Shown piece by piece: positions 34,508 through 37,415 of a stretch of DNA of 37,415 nucleotides (position 1 is the first letter of the stretch; the number at the start of each line of letters is the position of its first letter). Under the pieces are notes generated by a model, which saw only the letters and a program-made list of their open reading frames with translations, ran no database searches and was not told where the DNA came from. The DNA is from Pedobacter sp. GTDB lineage: Bacteria > Bacteroidota > Bacteroidia > Sphingobacteriales > Sphingobacteriaceae. The translations under genes were made by a program, and so were the position numbers. The stretch spans positions 1 to 37,415 of the forward strand of contig JACMND010000025.1 in NCBI GenBank assembly GCA_014378705.1, given 5' to 3'.

Positions 34508-35947
34508 TTACAAGCTTAAGCTCTGCTTCTTATCATTGTTTAGCGTCTCGTTAATATTCATAATTTTTTGGTCAATATCTTCCGCACAAACACCAAGTTG
34601 TTGAATAAATTCTTCCTGATCGATGAGTTTTTCAGCTTCTAAAATTAACAAGCCTTTTATCGTTGCAACAGGACTGCGAATTTGGTGGGATAGGTGAGAG
34701 GAATATTCAGAAAGCTTCTTGTTTTTTATTTTTAGGTCTTTGGTGCGTTCGTCAATAATTTCCTCCAGGCTTTGATTAATTCTATTCAGATCTTCTTTTT
34801 GCTGAGAAACTTCCTGATTAAGTGTTAAAAGCTGTTTATTTGTCTTCGCCGATTTTTGGTTGTTACGAAAAAGCAGGAAAATGGCGAAAATAGCAAGTGC
34901 TGCGACTACAGAGCTGGCCCAAAAAAGAGTTTTCGTATATTTCTGTTCCAAAATAATACGGTCGTTCTCCAATTGTTTGGCCTGCTGCCGATATTGTTTG
35001 TCCCGAAGAGTTAATTTTATTGACTCATTATTTTTATAAACCAGGCTATCCTGGGTATATATTTGTTTTAAATAACCCAATGCCGCCTGATAATTTTTTT
35101 TTCGGTTCTCCAGTTCAAATAATGTAAATGTAAAATCGTACTCTAAACGTGTATCGTTAATAATTCTTGAATATGTAATACCCTCATTTATTGATTTTTC
35201 GGCAGCTCCATAATCTCCTTTTGCTATATAAACTGATGATAGGGTCAAATTACTTCCAGCAACAACAAAATTTTGATCCTTTTCTTTTGCTTTGGTTATT
35301 GCATCCTTTAAATAGGTCTCGGCTTCTGGAAGTTTATTAAGTCGAAAATAAGCTACACCTATATTTTGGAGACATGCTGTAATACCTGTTAAATTATTGA
35401 GTTTCTGAAAATTTATAAAGCTTTTTTTGTAACTGATCAAAGCCTGGTTATAAAGTTTCTTTTTTTGATAAACTGTACCAATATTTAAATTAAGACCTGC
35501 TATTAAGCCTTCCATGTTTAAATCTTGAGCAAGTTTTAGAGATTTATGAAAAAATTCTAAGCTCCTATCGTAATCTATACTTATATAAAGATTACCAATA
35601 TTGTTAAAAACCTTAGCCTCCCCTTCTTTATTTGCAGTTTTTTGAAAATAACTCAGAGAATTTAAATATGATTCAAAAGCACTCTCATTTTCATTTTTAT
35701 ATGATTTACCAATACCAATAATTCTGTATGATTCTCCAATGCCGTTTAAAAAATTTAGTTTTTTTGATAATTTTAAGGCTTTTTCACCATACTGTAATGT
35801 TTGGGTTGGGTCTACCATTCTATTATCGTAGCCTAGTTTATTAAGCCTTATAATTTCAGCAGTGTCAGATAATTTAGAATTTGGTGATTGAGAGAATGTA
35901 GGATGTAAAATGAGGAAGGATATAAATAAAATAGAAAAAAACTTCAT
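34508..35947 (-). CDS. TPR sensor protein with DHp-like domain but no kinase ATPase domain
   Basis: 479 residues. A signal peptide ends near residue 20 (FLILHPTFSQ). Residues about 30-300 are tetratricopeptide repeats, for example EAKVFNNIGNLYISIDYDRS, LNLNIGTVYQKKKLYNQALI and CLQNIGVAYFRLNKLPEAET, placed in the periplasm. A membrane span lies at about 341-360 (LFWASSVVAALAIFAIFLLF), then a coiled coil (365-410). A histidine-kinase dimerisation-like segment follows: LSEYSSHLSHQIRSPVATIK, with His421 at the H-box position. The protein ends about 50 residues later with no HATPase_c domain (no N, G1 or G2 boxes), and the 190 bases to the next gene leave no room for one. It may be a phosphorelay dimer lacking its own kinase, or a receptor that acts through other partners. 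Confidence 0.85.
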   Translation of the reverse strand: MKFFSILFISFLILHPTFSQSPNSKLSDTAEIIRLNKLGYDNRMVDPTQTLQYGEKALKLSKKLNFLNGIGESYRIIGIGKSYKNENESAFESYLNSLSYFQKTANKEGEAKVFNNIGNLYISIDYDRSLEFFHKSLKLAQDLNMEGLIAGLNLNIGTVYQKKKLYNQALISYKKSFINFQKLNNLTGITACLQNIGVAYFRLNKLPEAETYLKDAITKAKEKDQNFVVAGSNLTLSSVYIAKGDYGAAEKSINEGITYSRIINDTRLEYDFTFTLFELENRKKNYQAALGYLKQIYTQDSLVYKNNESIKLTLRDKQYRQQAKQLENDRIILEQKYTKTLFWASSVVAALAIFAIFLLFRNNQKSAKTNKQLLTLNQEVSQQKEDLNRINQSLEEIIDERTKDLKIKNKKLSEYSSHLSHQIRSPVATIKGLLILEAEKLIDQEEFIQQLGVCAEDIDQKIMNINETLNNDKKQSLSL

Positions 35948-35955
35948 TAACGCTA

Positions 35956-35978
35956 ATTCTTATGTGCAGTGTAAGAAT
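35956..35978. repeat. Inverted repeat upstream of the TPR-DHp gene
   Basis: ATTCTTA (35956-35962) and TAAGAAT (35972-35978) form perfect 7-bp arms around a 9-base loop, starting 9 bases before the start codon of the TPR-DHp gene. It may be an operator, a leader hairpin over the translation start region, or the end of the winged-helix gene transcript. Confidence 0.35.
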
Positions 35979-36038
35979 ACATATAATGTGGCAGTTTTTC
36001 AAATTAACTTTGAAGCAAAGAAGTGTAATTTTTAATAA

Positions 36039-36443
36039 TTATTTATTCCATTCAATCAATCCGTATTTGTCATCTCTTTTTTTGAAAAGTTTCCCTGAGC
36101 GTCGGCTCAGTATAGATGCAACAGATGACCGGGTACTGCTTTCCTCAGCTAAACCTGGAACACGGTTAACTATTTCTGCAACAATTTCATTGGTTGTCAT
36201 CATTTTTTGAGAGTCAAAAAGCACCTGAACTATTTTTTTCGACCAGGGTAAGATCTCGAAATTATTAATTACATTGTAGTTAATTGCTGTAAAAGAGTTT
36301 CCCGAATCATATTGAGAGAGAAAATTTTCGTGATCAGCTAATTCTGTTAACAACGGTGCAACAATCATTTTAACTTCATCAATGCGGTTTTTTAGCGCAT
36401 GTATGAGTAATTCTAATTGTTTTTCTGTTAACTTTATTGCCAT
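36039..36443 (-). CDS. Small putative winged-helix DNA-binding protein
   Basis: 134 residues, no signal peptide or membrane span. The N-terminal third is helical and charged (TEKQLELLIHALKNRIDEVK). The C-terminal part (about 68-134: WSKKIVQVLFDSQKMMTTNE, IVAEIVNRVPG, TRSSVASILSRRSGKLFKKR, DDKYGLIEW) has the layout of a winged helix: helix, T-x-N-E-I turn, Ser/Arg-rich recognition helix, and a beta wing ending in Y-G-L. I do not recognise a named family, so DNA binding is a prediction. It is divergent from the tandem small lipoproteins across a promoter region with mirrored repeats, and the TPR-DHp gene follows 91 bases downstream on the same strand. A local regulator role is therefore plausible but unproven. 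Confidence 0.7.
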   Translation of the reverse strand: MAIKLTEKQLELLIHALKNRIDEVKMIVAPLLTELADHENFLSQYDSGNSFTAINYNVINNFEILPWSKKIVQVLFDSQKMMTTNEIVAEIVNRVPGLAEESSTRSSVASILSRRSGKLFKKRDDKYGLIEWNK

Positions 36444-36455
36444 AGTTTAGCTAAC

Positions 36456-36463
36456 CAAATATA
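36456..36463 (-). promoter_or_regulatory. Candidate -10-type element (TATATTTG) for the winged-helix gene
   Basis: Read on the minus strand, TATATTTG matches TAnnTTTG, with a weak TTTC about 21 bases upstream. It lies 12 bases before the ATG at 36443, predicting a very short leader. It forms part of the 12-bp mirrored repeat at 36452-36463. Confidence 0.45.
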
Positions 36464-36523
36464 TAATTTCTATCTTAGTTAGCAGAAATAAAAAATAAAT
36501 TCTTTTATATATTGTTAAACATT

Positions 36524-36531
36524 TATATTTG
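36524..36531 (+). promoter_or_regulatory. Candidate -10-type element (TATATTTG) for the tandem small lipoproteins
   Basis: TATATTTG matches TAnnTTTG exactly; the upstream partner is weak (TTTT at 36503-36506, 17-base spacer). A second, poorer match TATCTTTA lies at 36547-36554. From the first element the leader would be about 90 bases. Confidence 0.45.
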
Positions 36532-36628
36532 GTTAACAAAAAGTTATATCTTTAGAAAAATAATTAAACAATAATGATCGTACAGTAAGTTTAACTAACA
36601 AAAATTAACACTTTAAAAACTCTCAAAA

Positions 36629-36769
36629 ATGAAAAAAGTATTACTCGCAGTAATTGCAATGATTGTGTTAGGTATTTCCTCATGCAAAAAAGAAGATGGT
36701 GCGCAGCCTCAAGCTAAAAGCACTGCTGTTAAAGTCCTTGACAAAAAAGACACTACTCAGTGGGACTAA
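36629..36769 (+). CDS. Small lipoprotein A of a tandem pair (46 aa)
   Basis: An ATG at 36629-36631 opens a 46-codon frame ending in TAA. The protein begins MKKVLLAVIAMIVLGISSC, a textbook lipoprotein signal with lipobox ISSC (Cys19) followed by KKED. The mature peptide has only 28 residues: a Gln/Ser/Thr-rich linker, then the tail KVLDKKDTTQWD that ends the protein. The next gene encodes a paralogue with the same tail. The leader before the ATG (AAATTAAC and ACTCTCAAAA) also resembles that of the second gene, so the pair looks like a duplication including the upstream region. Lys residues after the acylated Cys are compatible with outer-membrane retention; surface exposure cannot be judged. 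No family is recognised. Confidence 0.8.
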   Translation: MKKVLLAVIAMIVLGISSCKKEDGAQPQAKSTAVKVLDKKDTTQWD

Positions 36770-36802
36770 TTTCACGTTAAATTAACTTTCAACTCTCTCA
36801 AA

Positions 36803-36940
36803 ATGAAAAAATTATTATTGGTAGTTGCCGTATTTGTATTTTTTGGTATCAGTTCTTGCAAAAAAGATCAAGGTGTGCAGCCTCAAACAACTTCTACATC
36901 TAAAGTATTAGACAAGAAGGATACCACCCAGTGGGATTAA
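36803..36940 (+). CDS. Small lipoprotein B of a tandem pair (45 aa)
   Basis: A 45-codon frame from ATG at 36803-36805 to TAA, 33 bases after the first small lipoprotein. It begins MKKLLLVVAVFVFFGISSC with the same ISSC lipobox at Cys19, continues KKDQGVQPQ, and ends in KVLDKKDTTQWD, identical to the tail of its neighbour. Over these 12 codons the two genes differ at 9 bases in 8 codons, all synonymous, while the signal peptides and linker differ in residues. This indicates selection on the tail peptide itself. The genes are probably cotranscribed. The function is unknown. Confidence 0.8.
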   Translation: MKKLLLVVAVFVFFGISSCKKDQGVQPQTTSTSKVLDKKDTTQWD

Positions 36941-36990
36941 TCTTATTAACATTTCCACTTAATTCGTGTAAAAAGTGTTCAAGCTTGAAG

Positions 36991-37046
36991 TTTGTAAAAC
37001 CTAATTTATTGAAAGATTAATTTCTAGATAAATTAGTTTTTACAAA
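36991..37046 (+). repeat. Long A/T-rich hairpin downstream of the small lipoproteins
   Basis: Arms 36991-37009 and 37028-37046 (19 bases each) match at 18 of 19 positions around an 18-base loop. A run of TTTTT lies inside the right arm rather than after it, so it is not a classic terminator. It begins 51 bases after the second lipoprotein stop and may protect the 3' end of that mRNA. Confidence 0.6.
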
Positions 37047-37176
37047 TAGTTTAAGACAATACTTGAATTCGTTTTTGTATCCCTAAATGGATCTTTACAA
37101 ACTCATGTTTTAATTTTTTTTTGTTTTTGTAATTACTTAACTACCTATTGGTTTTGTCTTTTCATCCTTGTTTATT

Positions 37177-37209
37177 CGTCAGAACTTTTTCTGACGGTAC
37201 CTCATTTTT
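37177..37209 (+). terminator. Possible weak terminator
   Basis: CGTCAGAA (37177-37184) and TTCTGACG (37189-37196) form a perfect 8-bp stem with a CTTT loop. A TTTTTT run starts 7 bases later (37204-37209). The gap makes it a poor intrinsic terminator, but it is the only GC-richer hairpin in the spacer. Confidence 0.4.
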
Positions 37210-37243
37210 TAGCAAATTTTACAATGAATTAGATTCTAAAATA

Positions 37244-37273
37244 TTGTTGCATTTCAATAGATTTATATATTTG
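37244..37273 (+). promoter_or_regulatory. Bacteroidota-type promoter for the M20 peptidase gene
   Basis: TTG (37244-37246), a 19-base spacer and TATATTTG (37266-37273) fit the Bacteroidota primary-sigma consensus. The ATG follows 16 bases after the second element, giving a leader of about 10 bases. Confidence 0.6.
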
Positions 37274-37289
37274 TTCAAATCATTGAAAG

Positions 37290-37415
37290 ATGCGAGAGAT
37301 TAAAGAATATGTAGATTCTAACAAGCAACGCTTTTTAGAAGAATTGTTCGAGTTATTAAGATTCCCTTCCGTAAGCGCTGATCCTAAGTATAAGTCCGAC
37401 ATGCTGTTAACTGCA
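37290..37415 (+). CDS. M20-family peptidase (N-terminal fragment, cut by window edge)
   Basis: The frame opens at ATG 37290-37292 and stays open for 42 codons to the window end. The sequence MREIKEYVDSNKQRFLEELF followed by ELLRFPSVSADPKYKSDM is the characteristic start of M20 dipeptidases/deacylases: an N-terminal helix, then L-x-x-F-P-S-V-S-A-D-P. In complete proteins this leads to the zinc-binding HxD motif, which lies outside this window. No signal peptide is present, so it is cytosolic. Substrate specificity cannot be judged from this fragment. Confidence 0.85.
   Translation, partial: MREIKEYVDSNKQRFLEELFELLRFPSVSADPKYKSDMLLTA

Follow-up and report, generated by a model that had tools for sequence, protein, structure and literature searches.

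Results

Two mini-lipoproteins with the same tail

The stretch of DNA analysed here (37,415 nucleotides, referred to as the window) contains two tandem open reading frames (ORFs), each encoding a very small lipoprotein, and, in divergent orientation, the gene of a larger protein with tetratricopeptide repeats (TPRs), which we call fam1 (Table 1). The first-pass annotation had described the two frames, of 46 and 45 aa, as having an ISSC lipobox and a common 12-residue tail, KVLDKKDTTQWD, and this is what the sequence contains; the two proteins are 69% identical. In the tail, 8 of the 12 codons differ, at 9 bases, and all changes are silent. That the peptide had been held fixed during this divergence agrees with a simulation in which the 9 changes were placed at random: the tail peptide was preserved in 0 of 200,000 placements. 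The Nei-Gojobori count for the tail is 8 synonymous and 1 nonsynonymous change, but the latter arises solely from averaging the CTT/TTA change over two paths, of which one goes via Phe. The leaders upstream of the two ORFs (aactctcaaaaATG and aactctctcaaaATG) are similar when judged by eye, as had also been noticed.

A minimal surface-export signal, C-X-K-(D/E)2-X, has been reported for Capnocytophaga (PMC5080379). The CKKED of lipoprotein 1 fits this LES motif, C-X-K-(D/E)2, which was defined in another bacterial family, while the CKKDQ of lipoprotein 2 is not an exact fit. A Pfam scan of both small proteins gave nothing above cut-off, and neither did an NCBIfam scan of the two and eight relatives or pieces thereof. 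PADLOC, which has no cut-offs and was applied to a repeat ORF and one of the window's small proteins, had no match at E ≤ 0.01, and Rfam gave none over positions 35900-37415. Promoter-like sites at the locus numbered 7 (7.5 in shuffled sequences) and terminator-like sites 0 (0.5 in shuffled sequences). In the rest of the window's genome, which is 99.7% complete, the next matches to the small proteins were weak and lay inside longer frames.

Table 1. Features of the locus (positions in the window)
Feature	Position	Strand	Remarks
fam1, candidate receptor, 479 aa	34508..35947	-	predicted signal peptide, TPRs, transmembrane (TM) helix at about 341-360, coiled coil, HisKA-like end; divergent from array
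Region between fam1 and array	35948..36628	.	holds 134-aa ORF
134-aa ORF	36039..36443	-	weak, sub-cut-off HARE-HTH-like match; homologous ORF also in G012 and in G015
Mini-lipoprotein 1, 46 aa	36629..36769	+	lipobox ISSC, then KKED, linker, tail
Tail unit 1, KVLDKKDTTQWD	36731..36766	+	
Mini-lipoprotein 2, 45 aa	36803..36940	+	lipobox ISSC, then KKDQ, linker, tail
Tail unit 2, KVLDKKDTTQWD	36902..36937	+	same peptide as unit 1, 9 base differences
M20-family dipeptidase, start	37290..37415	+	cut by contig end; usual downstream neighbour; family named on the G012 homologue

A family of small secreted precursors

The mini-lipoproteins belong to a so far unnamed, lineage-restricted Sphingobacteriaceae family of secreted, often multi-copy peptide precursors. 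Homologous small ORFs, for which the first-pass annotation had suggested a search, were found with mini-lipoprotein 1 as a single query in 13 of 100 genomes (E ≤ 1e-3), the window's own counted. Ten of the 13 contain two to seven such genes in a row and three a single one, in one case at a contig end. Genome G012 has seven consecutive genes ending in KKDTTQWD. Other genomes have different tails, which are the same or nearly so within each (KRDLGSYD, QKDNGNWD, KTLGSFD, KKDMSGWD, KGNLGTWD). The array of a genome consists of one to ten small secreted proteins and is divergent from fam1. Most relatives are shorter than about 103 aa, and the polyproteins described below have about 141-553 aa. The precursors start with a hydrophobic N-terminus, with or without a lipobox, as judged by hydropathy and regular expressions only. 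The original observation was right, and it leads to a family larger than first described.

G012 is recorded as Flavihumibacter soli R14, yet the genome search places it in the window's genus; the record may be mislabelled. Twenty loci came out of a pattern-based scan that covered 84,980 species genomes, 14 of them small precursors and six longer lipoproteins. The latter (L061-L066, 151-472 aa) were rejected as relatives of the small precursors, only the N-terminal part being common. In six genomes of the window's genus (L068-L073, in G009, G003, G006, G004, G007 and G018) there is only one mini-lipoprotein, and its unit, in place of the KKD type, contains Cys and ends in WD; it reads C-x-x-C-G-x-W-D in five genomes and T-G-C-G-A-G-W-D in G004.

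In many genomes (L037, L039, L041, L068-L073, L187, L204 and others) the last gene of the array encodes a distinct small secreted protein of about 51-69 aa, the end of which resembles the array ending of the same genome (LGSYD and ELASYD in G005, LGSFD and ELASFD in G015). No such companion with a similar ending is listed for the window or G012. The endings of array and last ORF were tabulated with an automatic rule for 35 genomes, and mismatches were seen in G335 and G183 (AD/ID) and in G326 and G167 (GD/AD); a separate table of the arrays has further ones in G030 (MD/WD) and G052 (YD/WD). No statistic is given on these endings because some of the picks are array members (e.g. in G155, G251 and G332) and five genomes list a further downstream ORF.

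The tail is a repeated unit under purifying selection

Comparison of the sequences indicates that the tail is the functional unit of the precursors, held as a peptide, and the part that is conserved and amplified. Its consensus is about K-[KR]-D-[LVI]-G-x-[AWG]-D, KKDTTQWD being the form of the window. KKDTTQWD itself is not universal: 75 different dominant 8-mers (one per genome) were counted in 100 genomes. K or R is found at position -7 in 80 of these, D at -5 in 59 and G at -3 in 77, and position -1 is A in 48, W in 22 and G in 19. As the units were hand-picked from the 8-mer counts, the final D (position 0) is fixed by construction.

Two features that the first-pass annotation had derived from the window, a fixed free C-terminus and a lipid anchor, could not be generalised to the family. 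Internal copies of the unit are present in 70 of the 100 genomes (C-terminal copies only in 30), and many polyproteins have, by eye, a non-lipoprotein signal peptide (e.g. the precursors of G033, G151 and G206). Repetition of the unit inside ORFs is frequent in the genus of Mucilaginibacter hurinus (g15). Several genes each carry two to eight copies in G305, G311 and G206, and long polyproteins contain 13 copies of KKSTGSAD in one ORF (G033), 11 copies (G151) or 21 copies (G141), while a 490-aa ORF of G320 holds 29, which are of two forms. The number of exact copies in a genome reaches 24. No single cleavage motif between units could be recognised by eye. In some draft genomes (L183, L197, L203, L205, L210, L220) the repeat ORFs contain runs of N or X, as if assembly halted there; copy numbers in these are therefore lower bounds.

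The dN/dS test that had been suggested for the tail was extended to 81 pairs of adjacent ORFs from related arrays. The last 9 codons had a pN/pS of 0.12 (pS 0.42), versus 0.35 for the signal-peptide codons. Purifying selection on the tail thus extends beyond the window. As pS is higher in the tail than in the signal region, a recent gene conversion confined to the tail is unlikely as its cause. The pairs were limited to ORFs of up to 60 aa with at least 50% identity in the first 18 residues and the same last residue, identical DNA being dropped; the requirement for the same last residue biases the set slightly toward a conserved tail. A partner probably recognises the tail.

The candidate receptor fam1

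Pfam identified TPRs in the window's fam1 (TPR_12, 3.1e-17). At the C-terminal end HisKA scored 22.5 bits, which is under the curated cut-off of 26.9, with SHQIR as the H-box. No HATPase family was found by Pfam at E ≤ 1, and fam1 accordingly falls outside the definition of a sensor histidine kinase, which combines a DHp His with a HATPase domain. PADLOC gave a generic TPR match only. In a set of 37 sequences including the window's, the length was 458-495 aa in 36 and 514 aa in one, with the ORF rule used. A hydrophobic N-terminus was found in 36 of the 37 and a TM helix between the TPRs and the HisKA-like end in all of them, a predicted topology that would place the TPRs in the periplasm. The His, Arg and Pro of the H-box are invariant (37/37 for His), and the residue following the His is Gln in 35 sequences and Glu in two.

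In the AlphaFold model (mean pLDDT 81.4) the TPRs form a superhelix, with 10-residue blocks at 85-97 from residue 31 to 290, the C-terminal half being less certain. The 25 best solved folds in a fold search were LGN/Pins, followed by Rap phosphatases, kinesin light chain, BtubC, TONSOKU and ciliary proteins. The resemblance to Rap phosphatases, several of which have been solved with a peptide, is also found by sequence. Asn residues are conserved at positions 36, 116 and 155 (37/37), 195 (36/37) and 233 (34/37), with a spacing of about 38-40 residues, the distance from 36 to 116 corresponding to two steps. In other TPR proteins, comparable Asn residues grip the backbone of the peptide that is bound, and by analogy this ladder may contact a peptide backbone in fam1.

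A profile search detected fam1 orthologues in 118 of 301 genomes of the family. The list contained 121 genomes at E ≤ 1e-70, from which G001, G002 and G010 were excluded, their shorter match (about 280-335 bits) being to a longer paralogue; fam1 is partial in G132 and G138. A class-wide draw of 395 genomes contained orthologues in eight, each of which belongs to the window's family.

The array and fam1 occur together

In 13 neighbourhoods that were compared, fam1 flanks the array divergently in 11, and the other two are cut by contig ends. The dipeptidase follows the array in 11 of 13, with two again cut. A 134-143 aa ORF lies between fam1 and the array in three of the 13 (window, G012 and G015), and this HARE-HTH-like ORF was discarded as a part of the system on account of this restricted occurrence. 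The wider block, as annotated in G012, comprises a PcrA/UvrD helicase, DUF4290, MurA, GH25, enolase-like, DsbH-like and FKBP-like proteins, the FKBP-like gene being present in 8 of the 13 neighbourhoods. No response regulator or complete kinase is found among the ten proteins annotated in G012.

We then considered the sequence upstream of fam1 in 114 of the 118 genomes (G129, G138, G224 and G287 are left out of this table). A precursor was present in 110: 100 with the unit, eight with a small lipoprotein whose tail has diverged (G011, G037, G049, G137, G148, G161, G191, G242) and two with a precursor that is only partial because the contig ends there (G020, G130). In G039 and G111 there is no sequence upstream of fam1, and the array ends another contig. 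No precursor was found in the stretch read in G248 and G281. G248 (L196) has three fam1 copies, and G281 (L207) has the lowest-scoring full-length fam1 (about 404 bits). Conversely, none of 19 genomes without a fam1 orthologue had a precursor upstream of the dipeptidase by lipobox and signal-peptide rules. These fam1-negative genomes were checked at the dipeptidase, and elsewhere via the family-wide array searches only; one of them, G010, offers about 425 bases upstream of the dipeptidase, near a contig end, and G017, also without fam1, was left out. Within the window's genus, precursors accompany fam1 in all 13 genomes that have it (shortened in G011) and were found in none of the six that lack it; in one of the six, G010, a contig end is close by. 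In G044, G054 and G236, fam1 and the array lie away from the dipeptidase, beside which no precursor remains. We therefore rejected the M20 dipeptidase as the partner of the array.

Searches for arrays in the 301 genomes gave strong matches in 31 with a profile (E ≤ 1e-9) and in 34 with a repeat ORF (E ≤ 1e-4), 64 genomes together, thresholds that were set after the lists had been seen. All 64 are among the 118 with fam1 (P 6.6e-33, uncorrected for phylogeny); any P value on this co-occurrence is inflated because of shared descent. At E ≤ 1e-3 the profile matched 276 of the 301 genomes, many of the weaker matches being N-terminal and inside longer frames. The tie between the array and fam1 is well supported by these observations.

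We also looked for receptor columns that track the A/G switch at the next-to-last position of the unit, and found none beyond chance in seven matched pairs. The best column reached 6, and 45 of 300 null draws did as well or better; four columns reached at least 5 (null mean 1.4), two of the four in the signal peptide. The residue class at position -1 changed 11 times on the fam1 tree versus about 35 times with shuffled labels, which therefore indicates only joint descent of peptide and receptor.

Discussion

A putative peptide-receptor pair

The annotation from which we started had proposed that the tail is a recognised peptide, such as a ligand or pheromone-like signal. This is still the best reading, and a candidate receptor, fam1, is now found adjacent to the precursors; the contact between the two at the protein level is what we infer. 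We give about an even chance to the locus being a peptide-ligand and receptor pair, made of the precursor units and the adjacent fam1. This builds on the observed precursors, the amplification of their unit, the purifying selection acting on it, its adjacency to and co-occurrence with fam1, and the predicted topology and fold of the latter. The mini-lipoproteins and their polyprotein relatives would be exported precursors of a repeated unit, which, free after some proteolytic release or still tethered, would be gripped by the TPR superhelix of fam1 on the periplasmic side. The bound state could be relayed inward via the TM helix and the coiled coil to the HisKA-like end. This end keeps the phospho-acceptor His but has no ATPase of its own; it must work on or with another protein, and its output might be phosphotransfer, a phosphatase activity or dimerisation with another two-component protein. 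The presence of several genes and of several units per gene would increase ligand dose, valency or avidity. Such a system might act between cells or within one cell. Against the pair speak G248 and G281, which keep fam1 without a precursor, and the diverged tail in 8 of the 110 genomes. The surface display predicted by CKKED would likewise count against contact with a periplasmic receptor. So do, for the model as a whole, the lack of receptor columns that track the A/G switch, of a cleavage motif recognisable by eye between all units and, in the ten annotated G012 proteins, of a response regulator or complete kinase, together with the sub-cut-off HisKA score and the less certain C-terminal half of the AlphaFold model.

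Comparison with known systems

The RRNPP systems (Rap-Phr, PlcR-PapR, NprR-NprX) also pair a TPR protein of 250-500 aa with a small precursor, encoded next to it, which is exported and has its unit close to the C-terminus. Intragenic duplications of the propeptide have been reported (PMC10075063), and the fold of fam1 matches RapF, RapJ, RapI and phi3T Rap. The signature used in PMC10075063 has five criteria. With respect to these, the window's precursors have 46 and 45 aa (propeptide of 10-100 aa), fam1 has 479 aa and TPRs (receptor of 250-500 aa), and the genes are direct neighbours in 110 of 114 genomes, with one ORF of 134-143 aa in between in the window, G012 and G015; for Sec secretion we find a hydrophobic N-terminus by hydropathy and regular expressions only, and the receptor is not intracellular, since all 37 fam1 sequences have a TM helix. 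This last difference places the locus outside RRNPP, though by analogy it may work in a similar manner. While RRNPP receptors are intracellular HTH or Rap proteins of Bacillota, fam1 is a predicted membrane protein of Bacteroidota, with TPRs outside the cytoplasm and a HisKA-like end, and it is accompanied by up to ten precursor genes or by polyproteins, often lipoproteins. As PMC10075063 analysed complete genomes of Firmicutes and viruses, its scope did not make it a test of Bacteroidota. RRNPP is treated under Gram-positive bacteria in a 2026 review (PMC13220807), whose text contains no word starting with 'bacteroid'. In the open-licence PMC literature accessible to our search, we found no peptide-signalling system of this kind in Bacteroidota and, by title and start of the abstract, no description of this locus.

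Among NCBIfam models, the PG1828 family lipoprotein (NF050142) is likewise small and shares N-terminal similarity over residues 1-39, but the window's proteins score 30.0 and 23.9 bits, under the 50-bit cut-off, and the end of the tail lies outside the match. Of the TPR sensor histidine kinases known from Bacteroidota, FimS (NF053520) matches in its TPR part, over residues 76-398 of the G012 relative of fam1 with 53.4 bits, below the cut-off of 600 bits, and differs from the window's fam1 in that no HATPase is detected in the latter. The Chryseobasin-related MNIO RiPP precursor model (NF050125) gave 17.2 and 13.5 bits for a cut-off of 40, and no MNIO modification gene is found among the ten proteins annotated in G012. 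Another parallel is yeast alpha-factor, a peptide pheromone of fungi made from a multi-copy precursor. As in the polyproteins, identical units lie head-to-tail in one secreted precursor; unlike it, the family described here is bacterial, has no spacer common to all members and is paired with a TPR protein rather than a GPCR.

Other explanations

RcsF/Rcs and NlpE/Cpx are known sentinels of envelope stress. The mini-lipoproteins might similarly serve within one cell as cheap reporters of lipoprotein sorting or periplasmic proteolysis, those retained in the periplasm being bound by the TPR protein through their tail, which would then signal stress. We hold this to be unlikely. It would account for the many copies that are lipoproteins, it agrees with the predicted periplasmic location of the TPRs, and the CKKED of lipoprotein 1 matches C-X-K-(D/E)2-X (PMC5080379); this LES-like motif favours surface display and therefore speaks for a sentinel, or else for contact-dependent signalling. 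It leaves unexplained the polyproteins, which have 13 to over 20 units and non-lipoprotein signals, as well as the change of unit between species (75 distinct ones in 100 genomes). Somewhat less likely still, in our estimation, is that the small proteins are effectors, either bacteriocin-like or surface- or metal-binding repeats, with fam1 only regulating them or giving immunity. The divergent layout is that of a regulator and its effector, the copy number of the repeats is high, and a repeat ORF weakly resembles the acid-shock repeat protein Asr (18.3 of 50 bits, sub-threshold). On the other hand, the TPR fold is a peptide-binding one, the annotated shared neighbours include no modification, transport or immunity gene, and neither fam1 nor any of the precursors tested scores above cut-off for a toxin, RiPP or defence family.

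It is quite improbable that the small proteins are decoys or substrates of a periplasmic protease or chaperone regulated by fam1. In its favour, most single-unit precursors end in D, and many arrays close with a further small secreted protein of similar ending. However, the only genes near such a role among the annotated shared neighbours are the dipeptidase, which is elsewhere in three genomes, and the FKBP-like gene, found in 8 of 13 neighbourhoods. Finally, a small lipoprotein gene beside a housekeeping block might have expanded in tandem selfishly or neutrally. This would be compatible with the wider block (PcrA, MurA, dipeptidase) being conserved for its own reasons, but it is disfavoured already by the pN/pS of 0.12 of the unit over 81 pairs and by the co-absence and joint movement with fam1, and we give it hardly any credit.

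Significance

If the ligand-receptor reading is true, Bacteroidota would have a peptide-signalling system whose receptor and ligand are encoded side by side in about a hundred sampled species, some of them named strains, and a kinase-less TPR membrane protein would gain a function. More tentatively, and with a chance that we put slightly below even, it would be a form of peptide communication that arose independently from the RRNPP systems of Gram-positive bacteria and is read by a membrane TPR protein that has its peptide groove in the periplasm and a HisKA end lacking the kinase, with exported multi-copy peptides that differ between species. Such peptides could signal kinship or cell density in Mucilaginibacter, Arcticibacter, Daejeonella and their relatives. 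Because the genome itself gives the peptide sequence, binding and specificity are testable with synthetic peptides. Should the signalling interpretation fail, it would still be striking that secreted polyproteins with 13 to over 20 nearly identical short units stand beside one TPR protein; sample members yielded no above-cut-off family when scanned with Pfam and NCBIfam.

Longer paralogues of fam1

The longer paralogues of fam1 (about 607-638 aa), which matched it over the TPR and TM part only, were considered as a second system and rejected, no small precursor adjoining them in the six loci read. In four loci (L223-L226, in G010, G001, G002 and G009), a paralogue of about 607-617 aa lies near an ORF of about 260-293 aa that is, by eye, response-regulator-like.
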